From: Pseudodesulfovibrio hydrargyri
GTDB lineage: Bacteria > Desulfobacterota > Desulfovibrionia > Desulfovibrionales > Desulfovibrionaceae
DNA length: 64,000 nt
Direction of reading: 5' to 3'
Assembly: GCF_001874525.1 (NCBI RefSeq)
Contig: NZ_LKAQ01000004.1
Coordinates: 1,805,406-1,869,405, forward strand
The position numbers were made by a program, and so were the translations under genes. The stretch's first letter is position 1. The number at the start of each line of letters is the position of its first letter. Positions 23,028-36,835 of the stretch are shown here, piece by piece. Below the pieces are notes generated by a model that was not told where the DNA came from, did not search any database, and was given only the letters and a program-made list of their open reading frames with translations.

Positions 23028-23071
23028 TGACATGGTTGTGAAAAAAAGCGTTTTTTATCACAAAATTGTCA
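23028..23071. promoter_or_regulatory. Nested inverted repeat, possible regulator site
   Basis: TGACA...TTGTGA and TCACAA...TGTCA face each other around an A7-GCG-T6 core, with 11 of 14 positions pairing in the outer arms. The inner halves TGTGA/TCACA are like CRP/FNR half-sites, but 16 bp apart instead of 6, one extra helix turn. It lies about 120 bp upstream of the possible promoter, so it could bind a regulator or form a cruciform. Confidence 0.35.
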
Positions 23072-23190
23072 TGGCAAAAGGACGGAAAAACGGGGTTAAA
23101 CTACATTTTCGTAGTAAATATCGGTTTTTTGGGAAACGGCCTCCGCGTATCCGCCTGGATATACGACATTTTCATTGTTTGGCATGTAAC

Positions 23191-23218
23191 TTGGTATAAA
23201 GGGCGACTAGACTATAAG
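23191..23218 (+). promoter_or_regulatory. Possible promoter of glutamine synthetase gene
   Basis: TTGGTA at 23191, a 16-bp spacer and TATAAG at 23213. This gives a leader of about 65 nt before the ATG. The match is moderate; a sigma-54 site was looked for and not convincingly found. Confidence 0.35.
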
Positions 23219-23287
23219 GGTCAGGCGCCCTTTGGCCCGGCCGGACGCCGGAAAACCCCATATTTAATTGCCTGGAAGGAGTATTAC

Positions 23288-25471
23288 ATGAGCGGATACC
23301 AGACTCGTCAGAACGCAATCAATGCGGTGACCAACTATCAACCCAGCACCGAGACCCTGAATTTCGCGGAGACCTCCCCGGCCGAGATCTTCGGCTCCAA
23401 CGTCTTCAACGAAAAAGTCATGAAGGCCATGCTGCCCAAGGAAGTCTACAAATCCTTGATGAAGACCAAGATGAACGGCGAGAAGCTGGACCCCTCCGTG
23501 GCCGGTCCGGTGGCCGCCGCCATGCGCGAATGGGCCATGGCCAAGGGCGCGACGCATTACACCCACGTCTTCTATCCGCTGACCGGCCTGACCGCCGAGA
23601 AGCATGACAGCTTCCTGAACCCCGACGGCGCGGGCGGCGCCATCGCCGAATTCGAGGGCAAGCTGCTCATCCAGGGCGAGCCCGACGCCTCCTCCTTCCC
23701 GTCCGGCGGCCTGCGCGCCACCTTCGAAGCCCGCGGCTACACCGCCTGGGACATGACCAACCCGGCCTACATCCTCGAGAACCCCAACGGCACCTTCCTG
23801 TGCATCCCGACCGCCTTCGTCTCCTGGAAAGGCCACGCCCTGGACAAGAAGACCCCGCTGCTGCGCGCCAACCAGGCCCTGAACAAGGCCGGCCGCCGCT
23901 TCCTCAAGCTGTTCGGCGCCGACGACGGCTCCATGGTCGTGTCCAACGCCGGTCCGGAGCAGGAATACTTCCTGGTGGACCGCAACTTCTTCTTCGCCCG
24001 CCCCGACCTGATGGTCTGCGGCCGGACCCTGTTCGGCGCCAAGCCCTCCAAGGGCCAGGAGCTGGACGACCACTACTTCGGCGCCATCCCGCGCCGCGTG
24101 CTCTCCTTCATGATGGAGGTCGAGCGTGAACTGTACAAGCTGGGCGTGCCGGTCAAGACCCGCCACAACGAAGTGGCCCCCGGCCAGTTCGAGATCGCCC
24201 CGGTCTACGAGCAGTCCAACCTGGCCACCGACCACAACCAGATGGTCATGACCACCCTCAAGTCCGTGGCCAAGAAGCACGGCATGGCCTGCCTGCTGCA
24301 CGAGAAGCCGTTCGCCGGCATCAACGGCTCGGGCAAGCACCTGAACTACTCCATCTCCACCGCCTCCCTGGGCTCCCTGTACTCCCCGGGCGACACCCCG
24401 CACAAGAACATGCAGTTCCTGGCGGTCACCGCGGCCACCATCCGCGCCGTGGAAAAATACTCCAAGCTGCTCCGCGCCGTGGTCGCCTCCGCAGGCAACG
24501 ACCATCGCCTGGGCGCCAACGAGGCCCCGCCGGCCATCATCTCCATCTTCCTGGGTGAGGAGCTGGCCGAGATCTTCAACCAGATCGAACTGGGCGACCT
24601 CAAGGGCTGCAAGGCCAAGGGCTGCCTCGAGCTGGGTGTCGACACCCTGCCCCCGCTGCCCATGGATTCCGGCGACCGCAACCGCACCTCCCCGTTCGCC
24701 TTCACCGGCAACCGCTTCGAGTTCCGCGCGGTCGGCTCCAACCAGTCCATCGCCGGCGCCCAGGTGGCCCTGAACACCATCCTGGCCGAGTCCCTGGACT
24801 ACATCACCGACGAGATCACCAAGATCACCGGCGGCAAGAAGTCCGGCCTCAAGGAAGCCTGCCAGAAGGTCCTGCAGGGCATCATGAAGCAGCACGGCCA
24901 CGTGATCTTCAACGGCGACGGCTACGCCGACGCCTGGCAGAAGGAAGCCGCCAAGCGCGGTCTGCCCAACCTGAAGACCACCCCGGACGCGCTGCCCGCC
25001 CTTATCGACAAGGACGTGGTCGCGGTCTTCGAGAAGTACGGCGTCCTGTCCAAGGACGAACTGCACTCCCGCTACGAGATCTACCACGAGCAGTACTGCC
25101 AGCACATCGTCACCGAGTCCCTGCTGACCATCAAGGTCGCCAAGACCATCATCCTGCCCTCCGCCATCCGCTACCAGGGCGAACTGGCCCAGGTCGCCGC
25201 GTCCATCAAGGCCGCCGGCATCGAGCCCCGCACCATCCTGCTCCAGGAAGTCACCGACAAGCTGCGTGACCTCCAGCAGAACATCGTGGCCCTGGAAAAG
25301 ATCGTGGCCAAGGAGGACTTCAAGTCCGTCGAGGAAGACGCCAAGTACAAGGTCACCAAGACCCTGCCCGCCATGCTCGCCGTCCGCGAAGTGGCCGACG
25401 CCCTCGAAGGCATTGTGGCCGACGACCTCTGGCCCCTGCCCAGCTACCAGGAAATGCTCTTCATCAAGTAA
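23288..25471 (+). CDS. glnN: Glutamine synthetase type III
   Basis: A 727-residue enzyme that joins ammonium to glutamate using ATP. Length and pattern fit the large type III group (about 700-730), not type I (about 470). The GSIII-type N-terminal block [13 protein letters not shown], the catalytic region [11 protein letters not shown], the [11 protein letters not shown] segment and the ATP-site [24 protein letters not shown] are visible. An ideal AAGGAG 6 nt before ATG sets the start; the open frame continues upstream but is not protein-like there. Codon use is very biased (TCC, CCC, AAG, CTG), which suggests strong expression. A large terminator hairpin follows. Confidence 0.95.
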
Positions 25472-25981: not shown

Positions 25982-26025
25982 AACCAAAGCGGGCCCGGCA
26001 CCACAGTGCCGGGCCCGCTTTGGTT
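25982..26025. terminator. Terminator of the GAK operon
   Basis: A perfect 20-bp stem with a CACA loop. The arms begin AACCAAAGCGGG and end CCCGCTTTGGTT. On the minus strand it lies 16 bp after the last stop of the operon. The T run is short, but the stem is very stable. Confidence 0.85.
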
Positions 26026-26040
26026 AGCACATGGTGGTGG

Positions 26041-26499
26041 CTATTCGCCGGAGATTTTGAGGGATTCGGCTTGGGAGCCGTCGTCGAGCCATTCAAGTTC
26101 GATCTCGCATTTGGCCTTGTCTTTTTTGCGGGCGAGTTTGAGTTCCACCTGCATGGTGTCGGGCACGCCGAGGACCAGGGAGTCGTTCTCGTTTTCGGCG
26201 CGGATGACGCCGGATTCGAGCGAGTCGGCCAGGTCCTTGAGGTAGGCGACGACCTGGGCCGTGTCCATGGTCTGTTCGATCTTGATCTTGCCTTTGCCCA
26301 TAGTCATCTCCTCGTTGCTCCCGTGGGCCCGGAACAGCGGGGTTCGCGGGGCGGCCGTTTCGGCGGCCTTGGCGGCGCAGGCCGGGGGAGCGGGTTGCGT
26401 GGTTTCGTCGGACGGGCGGTTCGCCGTCATCGGGCGGGCCGGGGCCGCGTCCGGGGTGACCCAGTCCAGGGGGTTGGTCCCGAGTCTCTCGTCGCTCAT
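26041..26499 (-). CDS. Amphi-Trp domain protein with N-terminal extension (GAK cassette, last gene)
   Basis: A 152-residue product if read from the ATG at 26499, which overlaps the parA stop as ATGA. Residues 1-66 are a Pro/Ala-rich tail beginning MSDERLGTNPLDWVTP; residues 67-152 are an amphi-Trp domain (GKIKIEQTMDTAQVVAYLKDLADSLESG ... IELEWLDD). A second in-frame ATG at 26301 has its own good site, GAGGAG 7 nt before it, and would give only the 86-residue domain. Both products may be made. Amphi-Trp proteins are small, of unknown function, and in the GAK cassette travel with an ATP-grasp ligase and an HprK-like kinase. A strong terminator follows. Confidence 0.8.
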   Translation of the reverse strand: MSDERLGTNPLDWVTPDAAPARPMTANRPSDETTQPAPPACAAKAAETAAPRTPLFRAHGSNEEMTMGKGKIKIEQTMDTAQVVAYLKDLADSLESGVIRAENENDSLVLGVPDTMQVELKLARKKDKAKCEIELEWLDDGSQAESLKISGE

Positions 26500-27251
26500 G
26501 GGGCACCTCTGCGGAGCAGTTCCAGGGCCAGGTTCCGGTAGTCGGCGGCCCCGTGGCTGCGGGGTTTGTAGGTGAAGATGTCCTTGCCGAAGCTGGGGGC
26601 CTCGGCCAGGGAAATGTTGTCGCGGATGGTCGTTTCCAGCAGGGCGTCGCCGAAGTAGTCCTTGATCTTGCGCCGGATTTCCCGGTTGAGCTTGCGGGTG
26701 CGCTGGTAGCGGGTCATGAGGATGCCGGACAGGGCCAGGTCCGGGTTCCAGCCCTCGCGGATGGCCTTGACCGTCTCCATGAGCTTGCCCAGGGACTGCA
26801 GGGCCAGGAATTCCGGCTGCACCGGGACGAGCAGTTCGCCCGCCGCGACCATGGCGTTCAGGGTGAGCATGCCGAGGTTGGGCGGGCAGTCGATGATGGC
26901 GAAGTCGTAGTCCCGGGCCCGGGAGAGTGCGTCGCGCAACCGCGTCTCGCGGTCCGTTGCCGAGGCCAGGTCCACCTCGGTCCCGGCCAGGGCCACGGAG
27001 GCGGGGACCACCTTGAGCGGTCCGACCTCCATGGTCACGGCGTCGAGCGGGCATTCGCGCATCAAGGCCGCGCCCATGGTCCGGGGCAGCTCGTGGGCCA
27101 TGATGCCCAGGGAATAGGTCAGGTGCGCCTGGGGATCGAGGTCCAGCAGCAGCACGCGCCGGTCCTGCCGGGCCAGGGCCCCGCCGAGGTTCACGGCCGT
27201 GGACGTCTTGCCCACGCCTCCCTTCTGGTTCAGTACGGCGATGATGCGCAT
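26496..27251 (-). CDS. ParA/Soj family ATPase
   Basis: A 251-residue P-loop ATPase of the ParA/MinD superfamily. The deviant Walker A QKGGVGKTSTAVNLGGALA (about residues 9-27), the LLLDLDPQAHLT block and the IIDCPPNLGMLTLNAM block are complete, so it should dimerise with ATP and may bind DNA or membrane. No ParB or parS site is seen. It lies in the GAK operon between a 61-residue protein and an amphi-Trp protein, and its stop is overlapped by the latter's start. It may position the other products in the cell; that is inference. GGAG lies 4 nt before the ATG. Confidence 0.92.
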   Translation of the reverse strand: MRIIAVLNQKGGVGKTSTAVNLGGALARQDRRVLLLDLDPQAHLTYSLGIMAHELPRTMGAALMRECPLDAVTMEVGPLKVVPASVALAGTEVDLASATDRETRLRDALSRARDYDFAIIDCPPNLGMLTLNAMVAAGELLVPVQPEFLALQSLGKLMETVKAIREGWNPDLALSGILMTRYQRTRKLNREIRRKIKDYFGDALLETTIRDNISLAEAPSFGKDIFTYKPRSHGAADYRNLALELLRRGAP

Positions 27252-27267
27252 GGGGCTCCGTATCGGT

Positions 27268-27453
27268 CTAGTGCGTGGTCTGCAGGGTGATCTTCTTGAT
27301 GACGTATTCCCGCCCGTAGCGGCAGCTCAGGGAGTTGATCCGCTCGAGTATCCGGTCGCGCTCGTCCTCGAGCAGGTCGGGATTCTCCTCCTCGATGCCG
27401 AACAGGTCGGCCACCTCGGTCCATTCGAAACTCTGGTCGTGCGTTTCAGTCAT
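27268..27453 (-). CDS. Small acidic protein of the GAK operon, unknown function
   Basis: A 61-residue protein, MTETHDQSFEWTEVADLFG..., rich in Glu and Asp in its first 40 residues, ending REYVIKKITLQTTH. It has no signal peptide or membrane segment, and I do not recognise a family. It is supported as a gene by GGAG 8 nt before ATG, by clean spacing (16 nt to parA, 35 nt from the upstream gene) and by shared strand. It may be an adaptor or regulator of the ParA ATPase or the amphi-Trp protein on either side. Confidence 0.6.
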   Translation of the reverse strand: MTETHDQSFEWTEVADLFGIEEENPDLLEDERDRILERINSLSCRYGREYVIKKITLQTTH

Positions 27454-27488
27454 TGTCGTTTCTCCACATTGCGCCTGGGCGCCGTGTC

Positions 27489-28061
27489 TTATTTGTTCCC
27501 GGCGGGTTTGGCCGGTGCTTTCTCGGCAGGGGGTTTCCCGGCGGCGGACTTTTTGGCCGCCTTCTTGGCCGCGCTCTTTTTCGGGGTCGACTTTTTGGCC
27601 ACGGGTTTCCGGGCCGCCGTCTTCGCGGCCGCATCCTTTTGAGGCGCGGCGTCCTTGGTTTCGGGGGTGGCTACGGGCGTCGGGGCGGGCTTGGCGGGCA
27701 CCTTGGCCGCCTCGGTCTTGGCCGGGGCCATGGCGGGCTTTTGGGCCGCCGGGGGCTTGGCCTCGGGCTGGATTGCGGGCGCACCGCCCTCGGGCTGGAC
27801 CGCTGGCACGGTCTCGCCGATCTTCAGGTCGGCGGACGCGGCCTCGGTCCAGCTCAGTTCAAAGGAAATCTTCTGCTTGTCTTTCTTGGTCTTGGCCTCC
27901 ACCTTGATGCCCACCTGGGCCGCAGGCTTCATGACCACGTGTTCCTCGCCGCTCTCCAGCACGATGGTGCCGGACCGGAAGCTCTTGGCCAGGTCCTCGA
28001 TGTAGGACACGGCGTCCTTGTATTCCAGGACCTTCTTGACGCTGATCTTCTGCTTATCCAT
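27489..28061 (-). CDS. Amphi-Trp domain protein with histone-H1-like Ala/Pro/Lys tail
   Basis: A 190-residue protein. Residues 1-80 form an amphi-Trp domain (MDKQKISVKKVLEYKDAVSYIEDLAKSF ... FELSWTEA). The remaining 110 residues are low-complexity, first Pro/Ala/Gln rich, then very basic with repeated AKK, KKSAAKKAAKK and KPPAEKAPAKP patterns like bacterial histone-H1-like or AlgP-type tails that bind DNA or polyanions. A perfect AAAGGAGG 9 nt before ATG sets the start. It lies 26 nt after the CofD-like gene. Confidence 0.82.
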   Translation of the reverse strand: MDKQKISVKKVLEYKDAVSYIEDLAKSFRSGTIVLESGEEHVVMKPAAQVGIKVEAKTKKDKQKISFELSWTEAASADLKIGETVPAVQPEGGAPAIQPEAKPPAAQKPAMAPAKTEAAKVPAKPAPTPVATPETKDAAPQKDAAAKTAARKPVAKKSTPKKSAAKKAAKKSAAGKPPAEKAPAKPAGNK

Positions 28062-28087
28062 GTTCGCAACCTCCTTTGGGTAGGCCG

Positions 28088-29272
28088 TCAGCACAGCGAC
28101 AGCAAAAATTCGCTCAACGCTCGCCCGTCGATGTCCGGGGCGCTCTGCTCGGTGACGAGCGGGGCCTCGATCACCGTGAATCCGCGTTCCTCGAGGCGTT
28201 TCTTGTCGATTCCGCCCGCGTACCGGCCGTTCTTGGCATCCACCAGGACGTAGCCCAGGACCTCGCCGTTCCCGGCCCCGGCGTCGGCGCGCAGGTGGCG
28301 GCAGAGGACCTCGGCCCGGTCGGCCACGGACATGCCCGGGGTCTCGGGGTCCGCGCCCGTGGACGGGACGAAAATCTTGGGGCAGGTGTTGGCGGCCACG
28401 GCCCGGCCCACGCCGTCGGCCAGCAGGTTGGCCACCACGCTGGAATAGAAGCTGCCCGGCGGGTAGCAGATCAGGTCCGCCTTGCCGATCCACTCCTTGA
28501 CCTTGTTGCGGATGGCCGTGCGCACGCGCTCCCCGGAGTCCAGGGAGGACGTCAGCCAGATGTCCTCCACGGCCGCTTTGAGCGGGGCGGATTCCTTGCC
28601 GGTGATCAGGTGCTGGCCCACGATGGTCCGGCCGTCGGTCAGGCGTACGGCCAGGTGCAGGTCCTTGTTCACGGTCGGGCGGACCACGCCGCAGACCTGG
28701 ACCAGCTTGGAGAAGAGATAGACGACCGGGTCGAGCTGGCGGCGGTTGGACAGATACCCGGCGGTCAGGACCAGGTTGCCGATGGATGCCCCCCCGAGGT
28801 CGAAGTCGGCGGGCATGCGCTCCAGGAACTCGTAGAAATGGTTGCGGATGATCTTGCGCATGGGGTCCGGGATGCGCCGGACCAGGGGGTGCACCCCGGC
28901 GGCCATGGCGTCCAGCTCCCCGCGCAGGGCGTCGGGCTCGCCGTCCTTGGGCAGCCGGTGGGTGAACAGGGCGTATATCTCGGGGTTGCCCTTGACCGAC
29001 TGGTCGGCCAGGGCCATGAGCCGGTTGCGGATGTCGCCCACGGCGGGCATGGCGAAGGCCTTGCGGATGACCGCCGAACTGCCGCCCGAGTCGAACGGGG
29101 TGATCAGGTGGATGGAGTTGTGGGTGTAGCGGATGAGCTCCCGGGAGGTGTCCCGCAATGCCGTGCCGCCGCTGAAGAAGAGCACGGACGGCCCGAGTTC
29201 GGGGGCCCGCCTGAACTGCTCAAGCTTGCGGGGGTCCGGGATGGTGACGTCCCTGGTGACTCGAATGCGCAC
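28088..29272 (-). CDS. CofD-like protein, GAK cassette
   Basis: A 394-residue protein of the CofD/YvcK superfamily, whose fold joins phospho-sugar or lactyl-phosphate groups to cofactors (CofD makes coenzyme F420) or binds UDP-sugars (YvcK). Visible family blocks are the nucleotide loop VLFFSGGTALRDTSREL near residue 30, ITPFDSGGSSAVIR near 58, and NLVLTAGYL near 170. It matches the CofD-related group known only from GAK cassettes. The start is GTG at 29272, with GGAG 6 nt upstream; a longer in-frame extension overlaps the kinase gene and is not protein-like. It follows the HprK-like gene by 11 nt. Confidence 0.85.
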   Translation of the reverse strand: MRIRVTRDVTIPDPRKLEQFRRAPELGPSVLFFSGGTALRDTSRELIRYTHNSIHLITPFDSGGSSAVIRKAFAMPAVGDIRNRLMALADQSVKGNPEIYALFTHRLPKDGEPDALRGELDAMAAGVHPLVRRIPDPMRKIIRNHFYEFLERMPADFDLGGASIGNLVLTAGYLSNRRQLDPVVYLFSKLVQVCGVVRPTVNKDLHLAVRLTDGRTIVGQHLITGKESAPLKAAVEDIWLTSSLDSGERVRTAIRNKVKEWIGKADLICYPPGSFYSSVVANLLADGVGRAVAANTCPKIFVPSTGADPETPGMSVADRAEVLCRHLRADAGAGNGEVLGYVLVDAKNGRYAGGIDKKRLEERGFTVIEAPLVTEQSAPDIDGRALSEFLLSLC

Positions 29273-29283
29273 TGTCCGCTCCG

Positions 29284-30381
29284 TCAGTCGGTCGGCAGAA
29301 GGCCGGTTTCCATGAAATGCAAGCATACATCGGAAGCGCGGTCGAAGTCCACGCCCCCGTCGATCTCGATGACCTTGCCCCGGGCCAGCAGTTCGGCGTA
29401 GGCCCCGGCGTCCGGATCGTCCCGGCGGGCCGGGTCGTCGGGCAGGTAGAACAGCCCCGTGGGCTTCATGAACGCGGGCAAGAGGTCGGTGCGCTCCCTG
29501 GGGTCCACCAGGCGCGCGCGCAGGGGCGAGTCGTCCCGCTGCCAGTTGAGGATGACCAGCGCGTCCATGGGGCAGCGCAGCTCGAACCGGCCAGGGCCGT
29601 AGCACTCGTCGATGAGCGCGTCGTACTTGTGCTCCAGTTGCCAGAGCTCGTCCTGGGGCATGGACAGGAATTTCTCGCGCAGGCCCGGCTCCACGATGCC
29701 GCGCAGGTCCGGGTTGTTCAGGGCCGTGCCCGGATTGATGCGCGGCTGTTTGGCCACCCCGTACATGACCAGCCCCTTGCCGTCCGCTTCGACCATGACC
29801 CGGTCGTTGGAGATGAAGGTGGTCCCCTTGCTCATCAGGTGCAGGGCCAGGGTGGACTTGCCCGCGCCCGAGAACCCGGCCAGCGAGATACCGCGTTCTC
29901 CCCAACGCACCCCGGCCGCGTGGCCCAGGAAACCGCCCCGGTTGAGCTTCCACTCGATGAACCGGTTGTTTACGAAATTGATGACCTGGTTGGCATTCTC
30001 CAGGCACGGCCCCACCGCCACGTTTTCGCCCTGGCCGAAGAGGAAGTGCATGCCGGTCAACCGCTTGCGGACCACGCGCCCGTCCGGCAGGTCGACCCAC
30101 TCCTCCTTGATCTTGGTCTTGCCCGGATCGGGCCGCTTGACGTTGAAGGCGAGATCGCTCTCCACATTCGGGCATTCGTGGGCCGAAATGACGATCCGGG
30201 CCTCGCCCGGTTCGGCCAGGAACTCCTTGAAATAGTCGGTCAGGGCGTCGTGTAGTCCGTCCGTGGAGCAGGCCACCCTGATGCGGCAGCCGCCCAAATC
30301 GAGGTGGAGTTCACGGATGGCCGGGCAGGCCGTTTTCACGGCCTCGGCCAGTTGCCCGCGGGTCGTGCCGGTCAGCTTCAT
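29284..30381 (-). CDS. HprK-related kinase B, GAK cassette
   Basis: A 365-residue protein related in its centre to HPr kinase/phosphorylase. The P-loop AGFSGAGKSTLALHL is at about residues 168-182, with the following SNDRVMVEADG block (Walker-B-like, HprK style). The N-terminal 140 residues are unlike HprK and hold ISAHECPNVESD. It probably phosphorylates a protein or small molecule within the cassette; no HPr protein is in the window. Its start overlaps the ATP-grasp stop by 4 nt (ATGA), so kinase and ligase are translationally coupled. Confidence 0.88.
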   Translation of the reverse strand: MKLTGTTRGQLAEAVKTACPAIRELHLDLGGCRIRVACSTDGLHDALTDYFKEFLAEPGEARIVISAHECPNVESDLAFNVKRPDPGKTKIKEEWVDLPDGRVVRKRLTGMHFLFGQGENVAVGPCLENANQVINFVNNRFIEWKLNRGGFLGHAAGVRWGERGISLAGFSGAGKSTLALHLMSKGTTFISNDRVMVEADGKGLVMYGVAKQPRINPGTALNNPDLRGIVEPGLREKFLSMPQDELWQLEHKYDALIDECYGPGRFELRCPMDALVILNWQRDDSPLRARLVDPRERTDLLPAFMKPTGLFYLPDDPARRDDPDAGAYAELLARGKVIEIDGGVDFDRASDVCLHFMETGLLPTD

Positions 30382-31250
30382 TTGAGTCTCTCCATGACGT
30401 AGTCCACGTAGCGCGCGGCCGCGTCGATGCCGCTGGTCTCCTGGATGCCCCGGAAGCCCCCGAACACCGAGACCTCGAAGACGTAGGGGCCGTTGTCGGT
30501 GATGGCCACGTCCACGCAGGTGAAGTCGAGATTGAAGTCGGCCTGGGCCCTGCGGGCCAGTTCGATGATCTCGGGCGCGGGCTCGTAGGGCCGGTACTTG
30601 CCGCCCGAGGCCGTGGTCGTGTTCCACGCCCCGTTGGTCTTGCACCGGGCATAGGTGGTCAGGTACTCGCCGCCCAGGAAGGCGATGCCCAGGTCCAGGT
30701 CGCCCAGGTCGATGGTCTTCTGGATGTACATGATCGGGTTTTCCGCCCGGTATTCCTCGATGGCCGCCCGGGCGTCCGGGCCGTTTCGCAGCACGGACAT
30801 GCCCCGCGCCTTGGAGGTGTACAGCGGCTTGAACACGGCCTCGCCGTAGTTCTTAAGCGCCACCAGGGCCTGGTCCACGGATTCGGTGATGGTCGTGGGC
30901 GGCATGGGGATGTCCTTGAGCTGGAGCGAGACGGTGCAGGACAGCCGGTCCAGGGCGCGCAGGATGGAGTAGGGCGAGCTGAAAATCCTGAGCCCCTTCT
31001 CGTGCAGGTAGCGCAGGACCTCGAGGCGGTCCAGCAGGTCCGGGGAGTAGCGCGCGCCGATCTTCTTGATGATCAGCGCATCGAAATCCGTCAGGTTGTG
31101 CCCGTTGTAGAAGGCGTCGCCCGAAGGCAGGTCCAGGCGCACGTCCTCCATGTTGATGAGCACGCGCTCGCCGCCGGTCTTCTCGGCCACGGTGTCCGCC
31201 AGTTTTTCCGAGGACCAGCCGCCCTCGATGCCAATGACTCCTATCTTCAC
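30378..31250 (-). CDS. ATP-grasp ligase, GAK cassette
   Basis: A 290-residue RimK-like ATP-grasp enzyme, distant from the rimK at 4762. The ATP-site segments EAVFKPLYTSKARGMSVLRNG (near residue 137) and the C-terminal TCVDVAITDNGPYVFEVSVFGGF metal-binding strand are present. In the last strand, FEVSVFGG replaces the usual MEVNSSPG, so one Mg ligand (Asn) is changed to Ser. Such ligases join a carboxylate to an amine; the substrate is unknown. The start is GTG at 31250 with AGGAG 7 nt upstream. It lies 19 nt after the PhoU-APH gene and overlaps the kinase gene. Confidence 0.88.
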   Translation of the reverse strand: MKIGVIGIEGGWSSEKLADTVAEKTGGERVLINMEDVRLDLPSGDAFYNGHNLTDFDALIIKKIGARYSPDLLDRLEVLRYLHEKGLRIFSSPYSILRALDRLSCTVSLQLKDIPMPPTTITESVDQALVALKNYGEAVFKPLYTSKARGMSVLRNGPDARAAIEEYRAENPIMYIQKTIDLGDLDLGIAFLGGEYLTTYARCKTNGAWNTTTASGGKYRPYEPAPEIIELARRAQADFNLDFTCVDVAITDNGPYVFEVSVFGGFRGIQETSGIDAAARYVDYVMERLK

Positions 31251-31269
31251 GAAACGGCTCCTTGATTGC

Positions 31270-32922
31270 CTAGTAGTAGAGGACGTCCTCGGGCAGGGAG
31301 AACTGTTCCCAGGCCCCGCCCCGGTATTGCTCGATCTTTTCCAGCAGGAACATGGACCGGTTGTACATCTCCTTGGCGAACTTGTAGTTCAGCTCGAACC
31401 GGGTGGAGGTGTAGAAGCTGCGCGCCAGGGCGAAGGCCAGCCGGGCCTGGACCGTGGCGTCACGGTGGCGCTGGGCGAATTCCCGGATGAACCCGTAGAA
31501 CTGCTTGATGACCGCGTTGATGCGATCGCGGTGGTCGCGGTCGAACAGGGGCACGCGGAAGTTGGAGATCAGGAAGACCGAGGCGTCCTGGATGTAGTCG
31601 AAGTCCCGCGAACGGTACAGGTCGATGTAGTGTATCTGCTGGGCCTCGTGGTTGTAGACCACGTTGTTGATGTTGAAATCCCCGTGGATGAAGACCGAGA
31701 AGGGCGCTTCCAGCTCGTCCTCGGCATTGGCGCAGGCCGACAGCAGTGCCTCGGTGGAACGGACCTCGGACCCGCCCAGGGACTTGGGAGAGCGCCAGAA
31801 CTCGGGGTGGGTCTGGAGCACGCCCTCCAGCCGGGACTGTATCTGCCACATGTAATTGGTCTTGATGGGCAGGTCGACCATGGTTTTCGTCCACGTCTCG
31901 AGCACGGTGTTTTCCAGGATGAACAGGGCGTTGCGGACCAGTTCGTCGTCGCCGGACAGGATCACTTCGTCCAGGGTGCAGCCGTTGAGGAACTCCACCA
32001 GCATGGAGCCCTTGTCCGCGTCCTCGTGGAAGCCGTAGATGTCGGCCACCAGGTCCGGGAAGAGCTGCTTCCAGCGCTGGATGGACTCCCGCTCCTTGCG
32101 GATCTTCTCCAGGTTGCCCTCCTTGTAGATGGACCCCTGCTTCTTCTCCTCGGAGGTCAGCTCGGCCTCGCGCTGCTCCACCTTGCCGATGCGGCAGCCC
32201 GAGCGCGTGCCCCAGATGGCGCTGAAGTCGATGTCGGAAAAGGAGTCGCTGAACCCGGACTTGGTCAGGGTCTGCTGCAGAGCCTCGAACTGCTCGATCT
32301 TGATGCGCTCGCCGAGCAGGGAGAAGATGACCGCCTCGCCGATGTTCAGCAGGGCGTCGCCCACCCGCTCGAAATAGCGGAAGATGAACAGCACCGTGAC
32401 CAGGGATTGCGCGTCGCGGCCCATGCCCATTTCGTTCATGACCCGGTCGAAGCGGACCTTGTACACGTCGTCGAGCATGGGCTCGGCCTTGCAGATGTAC
32501 AGGGCCTTGGACATGTCCTCCTCGTGGAAGGCGTCCAGGATGGCCCCCAGCCGGGAGAGCATGATCTCGAAGACCTCGGTGTAGTCGTAGCGCTGCACGA
32601 AGGACTGGTCGTCGAGATATTGCATCTGCTTGACGATGTTGACGAAATAGTCGGCGATCTTCTCCAGGTTCACGCAGATGACCTGGATGGCCCGGATCTT
32701 GTTCAGCTGGCGCTTGTCCAGGGAATGGTCCAGGTGGATGCGCGAGTAGCACTTGTTCTCGATGATCGTCTTGAGGTTGTCGATGTAGTCGTCGCGAGAG
32801 GTGATCTTGGCGTACCGTTTGCGCGACGGGGCATCCATGAACTTCTGCGTGGAGCGGGCCTGGTTCTCCACCTCGAAGACGATGAACTTGAAGTTCTCGT
32901 CCAGTCCTTCGAATGTCATCAT
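31270..32922 (-). CDS. PhoU-domain and APH-kinase fusion protein
   Basis: A 550-residue two-part protein. The first 230 residues are helical and resemble PhoU, the phosphate-signalling helical bundle (for example RAIQVICVNLEKIADYFVNIVKQM and FIFRYFERVGDALLNIGEAV, each with the E(K/R)xxD metal-cluster pattern). The second half is an aminoglycoside-phosphotransferase-like kinase with the catalytic loop IHGDFNINNVVY (His413) and the Mg motif HYIDLYRSRDFDYIQD. Such a fusion suggests phosphate- or metal-sensed control of a small-molecule kinase. It follows the amphi-Trp gene by 4 nt; ATG codons at 32922 and 32919 are both possible. Confidence 0.85.
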   Translation of the reverse strand: MMTFEGLDENFKFIVFEVENQARSTQKFMDAPSRKRYAKITSRDDYIDNLKTIIENKCYSRIHLDHSLDKRQLNKIRAIQVICVNLEKIADYFVNIVKQMQYLDDQSFVQRYDYTEVFEIMLSRLGAILDAFHEEDMSKALYICKAEPMLDDVYKVRFDRVMNEMGMGRDAQSLVTVLFIFRYFERVGDALLNIGEAVIFSLLGERIKIEQFEALQQTLTKSGFSDSFSDIDFSAIWGTRSGCRIGKVEQREAELTSEEKKQGSIYKEGNLEKIRKERESIQRWKQLFPDLVADIYGFHEDADKGSMLVEFLNGCTLDEVILSGDDELVRNALFILENTVLETWTKTMVDLPIKTNYMWQIQSRLEGVLQTHPEFWRSPKSLGGSEVRSTEALLSACANAEDELEAPFSVFIHGDFNINNVVYNHEAQQIHYIDLYRSRDFDYIQDASVFLISNFRVPLFDRDHRDRINAVIKQFYGFIREFAQRHRDATVQARLAFALARSFYTSTRFELNYKFAKEMYNRSMFLLEKIEQYRGGAWEQFSLPEDVLYY

Positions 32923-32926
32923 GGGC

Positions 32927-33193
32927 TCAGCGGACCTTGAGGAAGGCGTCTTCGGCCGGTTGGATGGAGGGGGCGTCCTTCCAGGACACCTTGATGGACA
33001 GCTTGTTCTCCGCCCCCTTCTTCTTGGCCTTGACCGTGAAGTTGAGCAGTCCCTGGGGCGCGAGATGGATCTCGTCGCCGTTGGTGGACAGGTCGATGGA
33101 GTGCTTTTCGAATCCCTCGATCAGGGATTCGAGGAATTCCTTGATGGACTCACAGTCCTGCAGCGAATCGAATACGAACTTTTCTTCTGCCAT
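32927..33193 (-). CDS. Amphi-Trp domain protein (first of three)
   Basis: An 88-residue stand-alone domain, MAEEKFVFDSLQDCESIKEFLESLIEGFEKHS ... LSIKVSWKDAPS. It has the amphi-Trp pattern: an N-terminal helix after a short strand, alternating polar and hydrophobic strands, and a Trp near the end (SWKD). It has no membrane segment and its function is unknown. AAGGA lies 9 nt before ATG. It sits between a PHP-like gene (18 nt) and the PhoU-APH gene (4 nt), so it is part of the same operon as the other two amphi-Trp proteins at 27489 and 26041, with little sequence identity to them. Confidence 0.8.
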   Translation of the reverse strand: MAEEKFVFDSLQDCESIKEFLESLIEGFEKHSIDLSTNGDEIHLAPQGLLNFTVKAKKKGAENKLSIKVSWKDAPSIQPAEDAFLKVR

Positions 33194-33211
33194 GGGGATG
33201 TCCTTGCCTGC

Positions 33212-34378
33212 CTATCCCGCCAGGCGGGCTTTGTACTCCTTGATCACAGAGCGTCTGGAGATGTTGTTGACGATGAGCTTCTTGCGGATGCGCAGGTCCT
33301 CCCAGGCCGGTTGGTAGCCGATCTCGCGGCCCGCCTTTTCCGGGTCCTGCTGGTCCTCGGGCTTGGTCTTCTCGCCCATGTGGCAGTCGTCGCCCATGAA
33401 GATGAGCTTGTCCCTGCCGGACGCGCGCCGCCCGTTCTGTTCGTTGACCACGGAGATCAGAAACTCCGTGTATTCCTGTGACTGGGGGTTCCAGACCTCG
33501 ATGCCGTCCACGTCGTAGTCGCGCAGCAGAATGGGCCAGAACTGTTCCGGGTGGGGGATGACGATGCAGCCGCCAAGCCCCCGGACCTCTTCGATGACCT
33601 CGCTGGCCCGGTAGAAGAAGGACAGGTCGAACCCCTCCTTGACCAGCTGCTTGACCGCCTTGAGATAGGCCTGGACGCGATCGGTCGCGGTATCGCCGAG
33701 CTCCTTGCGCATGGCGTCGAACCAGTTGCGCAAGAGCTTGTTCTTGACCGACTGGCGCGGCACGTCGGTCCAGTGTTTGTCCAGCAATCGCTCCACCTTG
33801 GAGACGTTGATGCGGACGAAATCGATAAGTTCCCGGTCGGCGCCCGTGGACTTGGCCGCGCGTTCGATGCGCGCCCCGTCCGGCCGGGTGATGGTGTGCA
33901 TGAATTCGAACAGCTGGCCCGAGCGGTACTTGAAGGTGTGGGCCAGCATGGACTTGAGTACGCCCGCGTCCTCGACCCGCTCGTTGGCGAAGTGCAGCAG
34001 CAGCTGGACCTTGCGGTTGAAGCCGGACGAAAAGCAGTCCACCTCCACCCCGGTGTAGCCGTCCCAGCTCATGAGCTGGTTGTGCTGGGTGGGGATGAGC
34101 AGCTCGTCCGTGCGGTTGGGGAACATGGCGTCCACCCGGGCGCGGATGTGCTCCATGGGCACGAACTCCGGGTGCCAGTGCGTGGCCAGCAGGCTCTCCT
34201 GGCGCACGTGGACGTTCTTCGGCGAGACCACCTGCTCCACCTGCCAGGGTTCGAGGTCGGTGGAGACCACGGCGAAGAACCGCTTTTCGTCGGCCTCGGT
34301 GATCTCCTCGTCGGCCTCTACCGGGATGGTCCGGCAGTCGCACGCCTTGGGGTCGGTCTTGATCAGTTTCATGGGCAT
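33212..34378 (-). CDS. PHP-like metal-dependent phosphoesterase in the GAK operon
   Basis: A 388-residue protein with motifs of the PHP superfamily, whose members use two or three metals to cleave phosphoester bonds. Candidate ligands are in LLATHWHPEFVP (near residue 66), GGCIVIPHPEQFWP (near 273), DGIEVWNPQSQEYTEF and LIFMGDDCHMGEK (near 335). The N-terminal part includes an acidic stretch, EADEEITEADEK. I cannot name the substrate. It may reverse a phosphate mark set by the kinases in this operon. The start is ATG at 34378 or 34372, with no clear ribosome site, 18 nt after the XXXCH gene. Confidence 0.7.
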   Translation of the reverse strand: MPMKLIKTDPKACDCRTIPVEADEEITEADEKRFFAVVSTDLEPWQVEQVVSPKNVHVRQESLLATHWHPEFVPMEHIRARVDAMFPNRTDELLIPTQHNQLMSWDGYTGVEVDCFSSGFNRKVQLLLHFANERVEDAGVLKSMLAHTFKYRSGQLFEFMHTITRPDGARIERAAKSTGADRELIDFVRINVSKVERLLDKHWTDVPRQSVKNKLLRNWFDAMRKELGDTATDRVQAYLKAVKQLVKEGFDLSFFYRASEVIEEVRGLGGCIVIPHPEQFWPILLRDYDVDGIEVWNPQSQEYTEFLISVVNEQNGRRASGRDKLIFMGDDCHMGEKTKPEDQQDPEKAGREIGYQPAWEDLRIRKKLIVNNISRRSVIKEYKARLAG

Positions 34379-34396
34379 GATCCGGGGTCGGGTGTT

Positions 34397-34921
34397 TCAG
34401 TCGTACTTGGCGTGGCAGCGGCTCTTTTCATGGACCAGGGCGTCCACGGCCGCGTGCATCCGCTCCAGTTCGCCGGATTCGAAGGCCGCTTTCAGCTCCG
34501 CGCACGCCTTGCCGTAGCTCTCGTAATACTCGTCCCCGTATCCGGGGTAGGTGACCATCAGGGCCGAGTCGGCCAGGAAGGCGTCCACCGCCTCCTTGGG
34601 CGGCATGGTCCCTTCGTGGGCCATCTTGACCAGCATCTTGAAGCTGCCGCGCATGCGCTTCTTGAGGTCCTTGTACTTGGGCTTGACGATCTCGCCGTCC
34701 TCGCCCACGACATCGGGCGCGCACGGCTTGGCCGCCTTGAACTTGGCCTTGAGGCTGATCTGCCCGTATTCGCTCTTCACGCCGATCTTGATCTTGCGGA
34801 AGTCGTCCACGCAGGCGAATTCGTCGTGGCCGCCGTTCTCCACGGCGTCGGCCAGCTCGCGGAAGAAGGCGGCCAGCTCCTTGGGCTCGAGGTATTTGCT
34901 GATGGTCATGTCGTTGCTCAT
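34397..34921 (-). CDS. XXXCH domain protein, GAK cassette, first gene
   Basis: A 174-residue protein beginning MSNDMTISKYLEPKELAAFFRELADAVENG, which is amphi-Trp-like, and ending ALVHEKSRCHAKYD. The Cys-His pair close to the C terminus is the mark of the XXXCH domain described for GAK cassettes. The Cys-His could bind metal or a haem-like group, or be a modification site; this is unproven. AAGGGAG lies 7 nt before the ATG. It is the first gene of the minus-strand operon and is divergent from the 5'-nucleotidase gene, with 189 bp between. Confidence 0.8.
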   Translation of the reverse strand: MSNDMTISKYLEPKELAAFFRELADAVENGGHDEFACVDDFRKIKIGVKSEYGQISLKAKFKAAKPCAPDVVGEDGEIVKPKYKDLKKRMRGSFKMLVKMAHEGTMPPKEAVDAFLADSALMVTYPGYGDEYYESYGKACAELKAAFESGELERMHAAVDALVHEKSRCHAKYD

Positions 34922-35110
34922 GAAGAATCTCCCTTGAGTATGAGTGTTTCGACCATACCGGGAAAACGCGTTGCAATACAATGCGCGTTGCGGAATTGTC
35001 ACAATTGTTCACACAGCGGTCCGCGCCCTTGGGGACGGCCGTTCCCCGCACGCAGACATTCCATTTTGAAGGAAATGCTGGTACCCAGCCCGTAATAGCC
35101 GGAGGTTCCC
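34922..35110. promoter_or_regulatory. Divergent promoter region of the GAK operon and 5'-nucleotidase
   Basis: A 189-bp gap with a 7-bp direct repeat GCGTTGC at 34968 and 34985 (17 bp apart, inside an AT-richer piece) and the AATTGTCACAATT inverted repeat near 34993-35005. No consensus promoter is clear on either strand. The repeats are candidate regulator sites for the GAK operon. Confidence 0.35.
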
Positions 35111-36835
35111 ATGATACGCCTTGCTGCCCGACTTGTCCTGGCCGTCCTCATCCTTTCCTGGCCGGTCACGGCCCGCGCCTTTGACGTCACCCTGCTGCAC
35201 GTCAACGACTCCCATTCCTACCTGGATCCCACCGCCGAAACGCTCGCCCTGCAGGGCAAGCCCGTCTACGCCCGCCTGGGCGGCTGGGCGCGCCTCAAGA
35301 GCGCGGTGGACGCGGTCCGCGCCGGGAGGGGAGACGTGGTCCTGCTTCACGCGGGCGACGCGGTGCAGGGCGGCCTCTACTACATGAAGTACGGGGGCAA
35401 ACCCGAGATGGAGTTCCTGGACAGGCTCGGCTTCGACGCCTTTGTCCCGGGCAACCACGAGTTCGACCGGGGGGCGCCGTACCTGGCCCGGGTCCTCGGC
35501 TATACCAAGGTCCCGGTGGTCTGCGCCAACCTGGACGGATCGGCGGTCCCGGCCCTGGCCGCGCGGGTCCGGCCCTACGTCATCGCCGAGCGAAGTGGCG
35601 AGCGGATCGGGATCGTCGGCCTGATCACCCCGGAGACCGAATCCATCTCCAGTCCCGGCGAGGTGCGATTCACCGACACGGTCCACACGGCCACCCTCAT
35701 CGTGCGCGAGCTTCAGGCGCGCGGCGTGAACAAGATCGTGCTCCTGACACACCAGGGGTTCGAGGCGGACAAGCGGCTGGCCGCCGAGGTCCCGGGCGTG
35801 GACGTCATCGTGGGCGGCCACTCCCACACCCTGCTCGGCAACTCCGGCATCGAGGCCATGGGCCTGCGCCCGGCCGCCGCCTACCCGACCGTGGTTAAGG
35901 GCGCGGACGGCGACGACGTGTACGTGGTCACGGCCTGGAAATGGGGCCGCGTGCTCGGCCGCCTGGACCTGACCTTCGACGACGAGGGCCATGTCACCAG
36001 GGCCGAGGGCAAGCCCCTCCTGATCCTGGCCGACGGCTTCAAGCGCAAGAACGACGCCGGGCAGAAAGTCGCGCTCCAGGGCGCGGAGCGCGACGAACTG
36101 CTGGCCTTCATCCAGGCCGATCCCGAGGCCGCCGTGGTGCCCGCCGACCCGGTCGCGCGCAAGTTTCTCGGCCCGTTCAGCGAAGGCGTGGAGGCCATGC
36201 GCACCGAGGTCATCGGCGAGGCCGTCCTGCCCCTGCCGCACATCCGCGTGCCCGGCACGACCGACTCCGGCGAATCCCTGCCGCGCGGCAGCCTCATCGC
36301 GCCCCTGGTCTGCCGGTCCATGCTCGCCCGGCTCGAGGGTACCGGCGAGCCCGCAGACATCGCCCTGCAGAACGCGGGCGGCGTGCGCGAATCCGTGGAC
36401 CAGGGCGACATCACCATGGGCACCGCCTACACCCTGCTGCCGTTCAACAACACCCTGGTGCTGCTCGAACTGACCGGCGAACAGGTCCGCCAGACGCTCG
36501 AAACCGGCGTGGACCGGGGCGGCGGAGCGTTCCTCTACGCCGGCGGGTTGCGCTACACCGCCGACATGCGCCGCCCCGAAGGCGAACGCGTGCTCTGCAT
36601 CGATACCCTCGACAACGCGGGCAACTGGACACCGCTCGACCCGGCCCGGGCCTACCGCGTGGTCACCAATTCCTACCTCGCCTCGGGCGGCGACGGCTTC
36701 GATATCCTCAAATCCGCGGCGTCCAGCTACGACACCGGCTTCGTCGACGCCCAGGCGTTCATCGACTACGTCCGGCAACAACGCATGCTCAAGCCGCTGC
36801 CTACCACGGGCGTGACGTACATCCCCGCCAAATAG
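35111..36835 (+). CDS. Periplasmic 5'-nucleotidase/metallophosphatase (UshA type)
   Basis: A 574-residue exported enzyme. Residues 1-23 are a signal peptide ending ARA before FDVTLLHVNDSHSYLD. The N-terminal metallophosphatase domain has LHAGDAVQGG, PGNHEFDRG and VGGHSHTLLG, all the two-metal ligands. The C-terminal 5'-nucleotidase domain has LQNAGGVRESVDQG and the base-stacking region SYLASGGDGF. It should release nucleosides and phosphate from nucleotides in the periplasm, and could feed the nucleoside importer at 15843-20522. GGAGG lies 5 nt before the ATG. Confidence 0.94.
   Translation: MIRLAARLVLAVLILSWPVTARAFDVTLLHVNDSHSYLDPTAETLALQGKPVYARLGGWARLKSAVDAVRAGRGDVVLLHAGDAVQGGLYYMKYGGKPEMEFLDRLGFDAFVPGNHEFDRGAPYLARVLGYTKVPVVCANLDGSAVPALAARVRPYVIAERSGERIGIVGLITPETESISSPGEVRFTDTVHTATLIVRELQARGVNKIVLLTHQGFEADKRLAAEVPGVDVIVGGHSHTLLGNSGIEAMGLRPAAAYPTVVKGADGDDVYVVTAWKWGRVLGRLDLTFDDEGHVTRAEGKPLLILADGFKRKNDAGQKVALQGAERDELLAFIQADPEAAVVPADPVARKFLGPFSEGVEAMRTEVIGEAVLPLPHIRVPGTTDSGESLPRGSLIAPLVCRSMLARLEGTGEPADIALQNAGGVRESVDQGDITMGTAYTLLPFNNTLVLLELTGEQVRQTLETGVDRGGGAFLYAGGLRYTADMRRPEGERVLCIDTLDNAGNWTPLDPARAYRVVTNSYLASGGDGFDILKSAASSYDTGFVDAQAFIDYVRQQRMLKPLPTTGVTYIPAK

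Follow-up and report, generated by a model that had tools for sequence, protein, structure and literature searches.

We analysed a 64-kb stretch of Pseudodesulfovibrio hydrargyri DNA (hereafter the window; 65% G+C) that carries the GAK genes, a set named in NCBIfam (TIGR04354–TIGR04358) with no assigned function; all five families score above cut-off here. We conclude with high confidence that GAK serves phosphate metabolism. Its ties to pst and pho genes are new here, and the phosphate-regulon link, absent from an initial annotation of the same DNA, is the main new evidence. Full-text searches of one literature collection gave no paper treating GAK.

The initial annotation described a minus-strand run of eleven genes with gaps of at most about 35 nucleotides (nt). 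All eleven open reading frames (ORFs) are present at 26041–34921, and the widest gap (27454–27488) is 35 nt. Three ATGA overlaps had been claimed and two were found (30378–30381 and 26496–26499). The proposed 20-bp stem terminator corresponds to a very stable hairpin with 20-base arms (its predicted fold has 19 pairs), but no T tract follows it and it is absent from the terminator-scan list. From the first gene of the run to the hairpin, the features are:

34397–34921, minus strand: XXXCH protein, with an amphi-Trp-like N-terminal domain and a four-helix bundle (TIGR04358, 114 bits; cut-off 40)
33212–34378, minus strand: PHP-like phosphoesterase, core (fold of the AlphaFold model)
32927–33193, minus strand: amphi-Trp protein 1, core (TIGR04354, 70 bits; cut-off 31)
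31270–32922, minus strand: PhoU domain fused to an APH-type kinase (PhoU-APH), core (PF01895, 65 bits; cut-off 23.5)
30378–31250, minus strand: GAK ATP-grasp enzyme, RimK/MptN-like (TIGR04356, 450 bits; cut-off 300)
29284–30381, minus strand: HprK-related kinase B (HprK-B; TIGR04355, 553 bits; cut-off 200)
28088–29272, minus strand: GAK CofD-like protein (TIGR04357, 539 bits; cut-off 340)
27489–28061, minus strand: amphi-Trp protein 2, with a Lys/Ala/Pro-rich histone-H1-like tail (TIGR04354, 65 bits; cut-off 31)
27268–27453, minus strand: 61-residue protein, peripheral (no NCBIfam or Pfam family match)
26496–27251, minus strand: ParA-family ATPase, peripheral (PDB ParA protein 8ray, 209 bits)
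26041–26499, minus strand: amphi-Trp protein 3 (PF20068, 51 bits, cut-off 27; TIGR04354, 63.8 bits)
25982–26025, minus strand: hairpin with 20-base arms, 3' of the last gene (z −5.65 against shuffles)

The CofD-like gene probably starts at a GTG at 29272, with GGAG upstream, rather than at the ATG at 29326; searches were run on the longer form from 29326. Amphi-Trp protein 3 has two candidate starts, at 26499 (152 residues) and internally at 26301 (86 residues). Scans of the window found no Rfam family and no tRNA.

Conserved core of the cassette

We compared 84 loci, comprising the window, three of the five annotated roseobacter plasmid records and the best 80 of 284 relatives found by scanning species-representative genomes with an HprK-B alignment. 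By our own criterion 57 of these have full flanks and 27 do not, and the following counts refer to the 57. HprK-B and the ATP-grasp enzyme are present in all 57, PhoU-APH in 56, amphi-Trp 1 in 55, and the PHP-like and CofD-like proteins in 50 each; the five enzymes occur all together in 46 loci, and some amphi-Trp protein in 56. A second or third amphi-Trp protein is found in 40, XXXCH in 30 (it is missing from 27), ParA in five and the 61-residue protein in four. The CofD-like gene of the window was added to the profile by hand, an antisense ORF having displaced it, and some loci likewise hide a gene.

The initial annotation had treated the PHP-like, PhoU-APH, ParA and 61-residue proteins alike as extras to the GAK set. 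This holds for ParA and the 61-residue protein, which are local additions; the PHP-like protein and PhoU-APH are core, as is amphi-Trp 1, like the ligase, HprK-B and the CofD-like protein. Compared with the NCBIfam set, the core thus adds the PHP-like phosphoesterase and PhoU-APH, and XXXCH (30/57) is optional. The order PHP, amphi-Trp 1, PhoU-APH, ATP-grasp, HprK-B, CofD varies little across Desulfobacterota, Zixibacteria, Phycisphaerae, SAR324/Lambdaproteobacteria and one spirochaete; CofD was not seen in the Nitrospinota loci. Neither PHP nor XXXCH was seen in the three roseobacter plasmid cassettes (L001, L002, L003). These encode phosphatases of the histidine and the calcineurin type, the latter scoring close to its Pfam cut-off, and L002 encodes a NUDIX hydrolase in addition. 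Because these phosphatases stand where PHP stands elsewhere, the phosphatase appears exchangeable, with the kinases, ligase and amphi-Trp proteins constant. Within the window's own genus the distribution is patchy, HprK-B exceeding its cut-off in 13 of 30 genomes.

The recognition of the ligase, the HprK-like, CofD-like and XXXCH proteins and three amphi-Trp proteins as the GAK set was borne out by the NCBIfam cut-offs (for the third amphi-Trp protein by Pfam and TIGR04354). The PHP-like, PhoU-APH and ParA assignments of the initial annotation were likewise upheld. The PHP-like protein matched none of the PHP families of NCBIfam or Pfam; its AlphaFold model shows a PHP phosphoesterase fold, and H67, H69, H99, E112, H276, D330 and H333 are invariant in 56 sequences, the metal ligands among them being putative. 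PhoU-APH exceeds the PhoU cut-off, and its kinase half scores 25.6 bits with EcKL (cut-off 22) and 21.2 bits with APH, just below the cut-off of 23.2. The ParA-like ATPase falls below the ParA_partition cut-off (121 bits against 180), yet matches solved ParA proteins.

A further point raised at the outset was whether the active sites are kept or lost. Those of both kinases are intact: HprK-B retains H154, the P-loop and NDR in 83 of 83 sequences, and PhoU-APH keeps HGD..N and a later Asp in 79 of 79. In the ATP-grasp enzyme, aligned to RimK, the usual metal-site Asn is replaced by Ser (S261 in 75/77); K147 is kept in 76/76 and a basic loop is present. Against the hpr-ser equivalog HprK-B scores 24 bits (cut-off 240), over the P-loop region only, and a search for solved relatives by sequence gave none beyond the P-loops of ABC proteins. 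The ATP-grasp enzyme is nearest to amide-forming ligases (MptN, 143.5 bits; RimK family, 101 bits) and misses the CofF (14.8/300), MptN (143.5/350) and RimK cut-offs. The CofD-like protein scores 137 bits with Pfam CofD, and a sequence search of solved structures places it closest to UPF0052/YvcK-type proteins.

Among the small proteins, the tail of amphi-Trp 2 matches HC2 with E = 6e-4, under the Pfam cut-off, and histone-H1-like tails occur in 10 of 86 relatives by our own composition criterion. The XXXCH protein ends in CHxxYD (CHxxYK in most relatives), with H170 invariant and C169 present in more than 90% of 33 sequences; its CxxCH haem-c motif is incomplete, the first Cys missing and the CH kept. 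The AlphaFold model (predicted local distance difference test score 91) gave cytochrome c' as the first 21 Foldseek matches (best E = 4.8e-3), so that the domain (34397–34921) would resemble a cytoplasmic, degenerate cytochrome c'. A weak Foldseek match to YiiS (2k3i), 34th in rank and over 69 columns, perhaps concerns the amphi-Trp-like N-terminal domain.

Phosphate-uptake genes and the divergent promoter

To the 84 loci, in which pstB was called at E < 1e-80 to the D. (Desulfovibrio) gigas protein (next candidate 3e-36), we added 40 loci from a search of the order Desulfovibrionales (29 genera once each, nine lower-scoring copies and two extras). The second set was picked before neighbours were seen; five loci, none with pstB, are common to both. 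In 12 of the 124 loci a pstB gene is found no further than 10 kb from HprK-B, where a density of one pstB per 4 Mb would give about 0.6 (Poisson p = 4e-12); the count leaves out the loci of D. gigas and D. magneticus, which were selected by name. Six of the 12 belong to the first set (L017, L020, L029, L042, L044, L057), where pstB lies upstream on the cassette strand, preceded in L020, L029 and L042 by pstC-like and pstA-like genes, and six to the second (L115, L117, L118, L124, L126, L133; 358–458 bits to the D. gigas protein). NCBIfam cut-offs were exceeded in D. gigas by PstB and PhoU, in L057 by PstB and in L020 by PstC and PstA; the remaining pst/pho assignments rest on similarity. The enrichment is weakened by the presence of two pstB genes per genome and by relatedness, but is hardly removed by these effects because the arrangements differ (pstB-phoU-XXXCH-PHP; pstC-pstA-hprKB; hprKB then pstCAB; pstB-phoU-hprKB-cofD). 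We regard the link of the cassette to phosphate as well supported.

In D. gigas, phoB-like, phoR-like, pstB, phoU, XXXCH, PHP, amphi-Trp 1, PhoU-APH, ATP-grasp, HprK-B and CofD genes follow one another on one strand (PhoB 255/296 bits and PhoR 228/334 bits, both below cut-off). This genome was identified through its rubredoxin, which has 100% identity to the PDB chain. PhoB-like and phoR-like genes adjoin GAK in L115 and L117 as well. In the genome that we take to be D. magneticus RS-1, amphi-Trp 1, PhoU-APH, ATP-grasp and HprK-B stand at one place and pstB-phoU-hprKB-cofD at another.

Two side observations concern these neighbourhoods. In L126, L133 and L137 (one genus, including D. magneticus), a second HprK-B and CofD-like pair directly follows pstB-phoU, away from the main cassette. 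An ArsC-like low-molecular-weight protein is encoded between phoU and the cassette in L020 (3645–4073, below the family cut-off) and L029 (3238–3681).

The promoter of the cassette is shared with a divergent gene:

34998–35013, minus strand: PhoB-box-like site TGTGAACAATTGTGAC in the divergent promoter (9/10 positions of the D. vulgaris consensus)
35111–36835, plus strand: divergent 5'-nucleotidase, NadN/UshA-like (TIGR01530, 376 bits, missing the cut-off of 436; UshA model, 158 bits)

The D. vulgaris PhoB box is given in passages of PMC3333781 as (c/t)GTnAC-N4-(c/t)GTnAC. The window site, read from 35013 to 34998, is one of four such candidates in the 64 kb and may hint at Pho control. Among 16 promoters tested, 10/10 sites occur in L007, L010 and L097 and 9/10 sites in L009 and L136, all five at a distance from the start codon within 2 nt of that in the window. 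The L136 promoter is nearly identical to the window's, and the other four are less alike in the surroundings of the site. The 9/10 site of L108 lies elsewhere in the promoter. Sites matching at least 9/10 positions were found in 5 of 66 loci against 15 of 1320 random stretches, and 10/10 sites in 2 of 66 against none. A search of the window promoter for the E. coli-type Pho box was negative. The N terminus of the 5'-nucleotidase looks signal-peptide-like by eye, and a homologue occupies the same place in L136. Other 5'-nucleotidase-like genes lie near GAK in L017 (2912–4579, minus strand; weak) and near the start of L116.

Polyphosphate kinases and phosphate granules

HprK-B exceeds its cut-off in 107 of 247 Desulfovibrionales genomes and PPK1 is present in 40, with no genome having both (Fisher p = 1e-11; PPK1 in 0/107 GAK-positive and 40/140 GAK-negative genomes). 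By genus, GAK occurs in 30 of 51 and PPK1 in seven, one genus being common to both through different genomes (p = 0.015; the figures of 30 genera and zero overlap were tallied by hand). A phylum sample (n = 345) has 23 genomes with GAK, 36 with PPK1 and none with both (p = 0.15). HprK-B matches below cut-off, in 18 genomes of the order and 139 of the phylum sample, were not counted as GAK. PPK1 was also searched in 49 GAK-positive genomes, out of 50 taken from the 80 named loci. PPK1 (TIGR03705) has no match in the genomes of the window, D. gigas and D. magneticus, and PPK2 (PF03976) none in seven GAK-positive genomes (these three and four others).

Passages of PMC5134017 credit Jones and Chambers (1975) with large polyphosphate granules in D. 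gigas, and describe Fe-P granules of D. magneticus RS-1 with spectra like ferrous triphosphate, at a poor fit. A term search of the main text of the D. gigas genome paper (PMC4287179) returned neither 'granules' nor 'polyphosphate'. Dense granules in Desulfobacterota are thought likely to be glycogen in a passage of PMC9764997, and we do not use them as support.

Proposed working and alternative explanations

We see an even chance that GAK works independently of PPK, making a phosphate-rich storage compound and mobilising it again. This reading rests on gene content and order, the intact kinase motifs, adjacency to pst and pho genes, the PhoB-box-like site and the absence of PPK1 and PPK2 in two reported granule-formers; from these we infer the catalytic assignments, the product and a role in granules. 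Pst would import phosphate, which PhoU-APH (a phosphate-sensing PhoU half and a sugar-kinase-like half), HprK-B and the ATP-grasp enzyme could put on a small acceptor, perhaps a sugar. Nucleotide-sugar or phosphoryl transfer may be the task of the YvcK/CofD-like protein, and the PHP phosphoesterase would take phosphate off again, a role that could fall in roseobacters to the histidine phosphatase, the calcineurin-type phosphatase and, once, the NUDIX hydrolase. Amphi-Trp and XXXCH proteins might organise the deposit, which in the window and a few relatives the ParA ATPase and the histone-H1-like tail could space on the nucleoid.

More specific versions are tentative. It is possible, though doubtful, that the D. 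gigas compound is glucose pentakis(diphosphate), the reported material of its granules, in a deposit organised by the small proteins. Equally tentative is GAK as a second, PPK-independent bacterial phosphate store, in which Pho-regulated kinases would make a polyphosphorylated small molecule, amphi-Trp and XXXCH proteins a deposit, and ParA and H1-like tails, in a few carriers, its spacing. Polyphosphate storage by PPK1 or PPK2 with AlgP-type spacing has in common with GAK the phosphate-uptake link, the H1-like tail and reported granules in two carriers; tails of the amphi-Trp 2 type resemble AlgP, which spaces polyphosphate granules. The GAK kinases, in contrast, belong to other families, and neither PPK is present in the genomes of the window, D. 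gigas and D. magneticus. Organelle positioning by McdA/ParA similarly pairs a ParA-family ATPase with proteins proposed to coat a deposit, but ParA stands beside GAK in only 5 of the 57 full-flank loci.

Several observations weigh against storage. No such pstB was seen in 112 of the 124 loci (some contigs end), and the two D. magneticus stretches read contain neither PHP nor XXXCH. Nine of the 16 promoters tested have no PhoB-like site, and the D. gigas stretches have 9/10 sites only, all at a distance from where the cassette begins. In the window genome pstB-phoU is found at another place and has no 9/10 box within 2.5 kb upstream (operon start not determined), and exact boxes are no commoner genome-wide than a reversed control (5 against 10); because of these two results we take the box as a hint only. 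The exclusion of PPK1 clusters by lineage (p = 0.015 by genus and 0.15 in the phylum sample), 100 of the 247 Desulfovibrionales genomes have neither GAK nor PPK1, and Desulfogranum japonicum, one of the 49 genomes searched, has both. The closeness of the ATP-grasp enzyme to amide-forming ligases suggests an activity that a pure polyphosphorylated sugar would not need. The D. gigas granules are reportedly glucose pentakis(diphosphate), a finding attributed to Hensgens and others (1996, Eur J Biochem), for which we found no confirming paper. The Fe-P granules of D. magneticus have been explained as ferrosomes made by other genes, and we therefore keep them as weak support only. The product and activity of GAK are themselves inferred.

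With p = 0.15 in the phylum sample and both systems in the Desulfogranum japonicum genome, we rejected a strict replacement of PPK1 by GAK.

The PhoU domain fused to a kinase, hprKB-cofD directly after pstB-phoU in one genus, and the phoB-like and phoR-like genes beside GAK in D. gigas, L115 and L117 would also suit phosphate signalling, in which phosphorylation of PhoU, Pst or a second messenger by PhoU-APH and HprK-B would adjust uptake to supply, with the small proteins as regulators. We consider this unlikely: a set of five conserved enzymes with as many as three phosphatases is large for a signal, 112 of 124 loci are not beside pst, and the missing PPK1 is left unexplained.

A RimK/MptN-like ligase and a YvcK/CofD-like transferase could instead build a glutamylated, phosphorylated cofactor or natural product under phosphate control. 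The resemblance of the ligase to MptN and RimK and the Pfam CofD score point this way, as does the pairing of the Pfam CofD family with a RimK-type ATP-grasp enzyme in F420 and tetrahydromethanopterin glutamylation (CofD, CofF, MptN). The GAK ligase, however, misses the CofF and MptN cut-offs, as well as that of RimK; 75 of 77 sequences have Ser for the metal-site Asn, and the basic loop is present; the closest solved CofD relatives are of the YvcK type; and we know of no counterpart of the HprK-like and PhoU-APH kinases in F420 or tetrahydromethanopterin glutamylation. We judge this route improbable.

Reversible modification of the amphi-Trp and XXXCH proteins by the ligase and kinases, one of two options in the initial annotation, is very improbable and gained no support: RimK does modify a protein, an amphi-Trp protein is present in 56 of 57 loci and the C-terminal CH of XXXCH is conserved, but XXXCH is absent from 27 of the 57 and from the three roseobacter cassettes, the CH is consistent with a haem-ligand site inherited along with a cytochrome c'-like fold, and the phosphate context is left unexplained. 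The other option, synthesis of a phosphorylated small molecule, took what we count as the right direction, the product being conjectural.

A GAK storage cassette would offer genes for an old puzzle, the large phosphate granules reported for D. gigas, whose genome lacks PPK1 and PPK2, and genome screens based on ppk alone would overlook phosphate storage in many anaerobes. The ties to pst, phoU and phoB-like genes give a set so far named without function a testable role; a passage of PMC6210102 indicates that mutants have been made in both D. gigas and D. magneticus.

A role in anti-phage defence was rejected, PADLOC having given weak or generic-ATPase matches only. A GT4-glycosyltransferase protein, mostly of 800–1000 residues, is encoded no more than about 10 kb from HprK-B in 15 of the 84 loci (L022, L034, L038, L041, L043, L045, L051, L059, L069, L085 and five more) and in D. 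magneticus (L137). Its GT4 part was identified by Pfam in two members, and an N-terminal HxH stretch looks PHP-like by eye. We kept this recurrent glycosyltransferase out of the model because a background rate is wanting. A phosphatidylserine decarboxylase (by Pfam for L034) is encoded near GAK beside an 800-residue protein without a Pfam match in L034, L035, L075, L082 and L084. In the window, a long ORF at 23066–25471 (plus strand), convergent with the cassette, resembles type III glutamine synthetase by eye.

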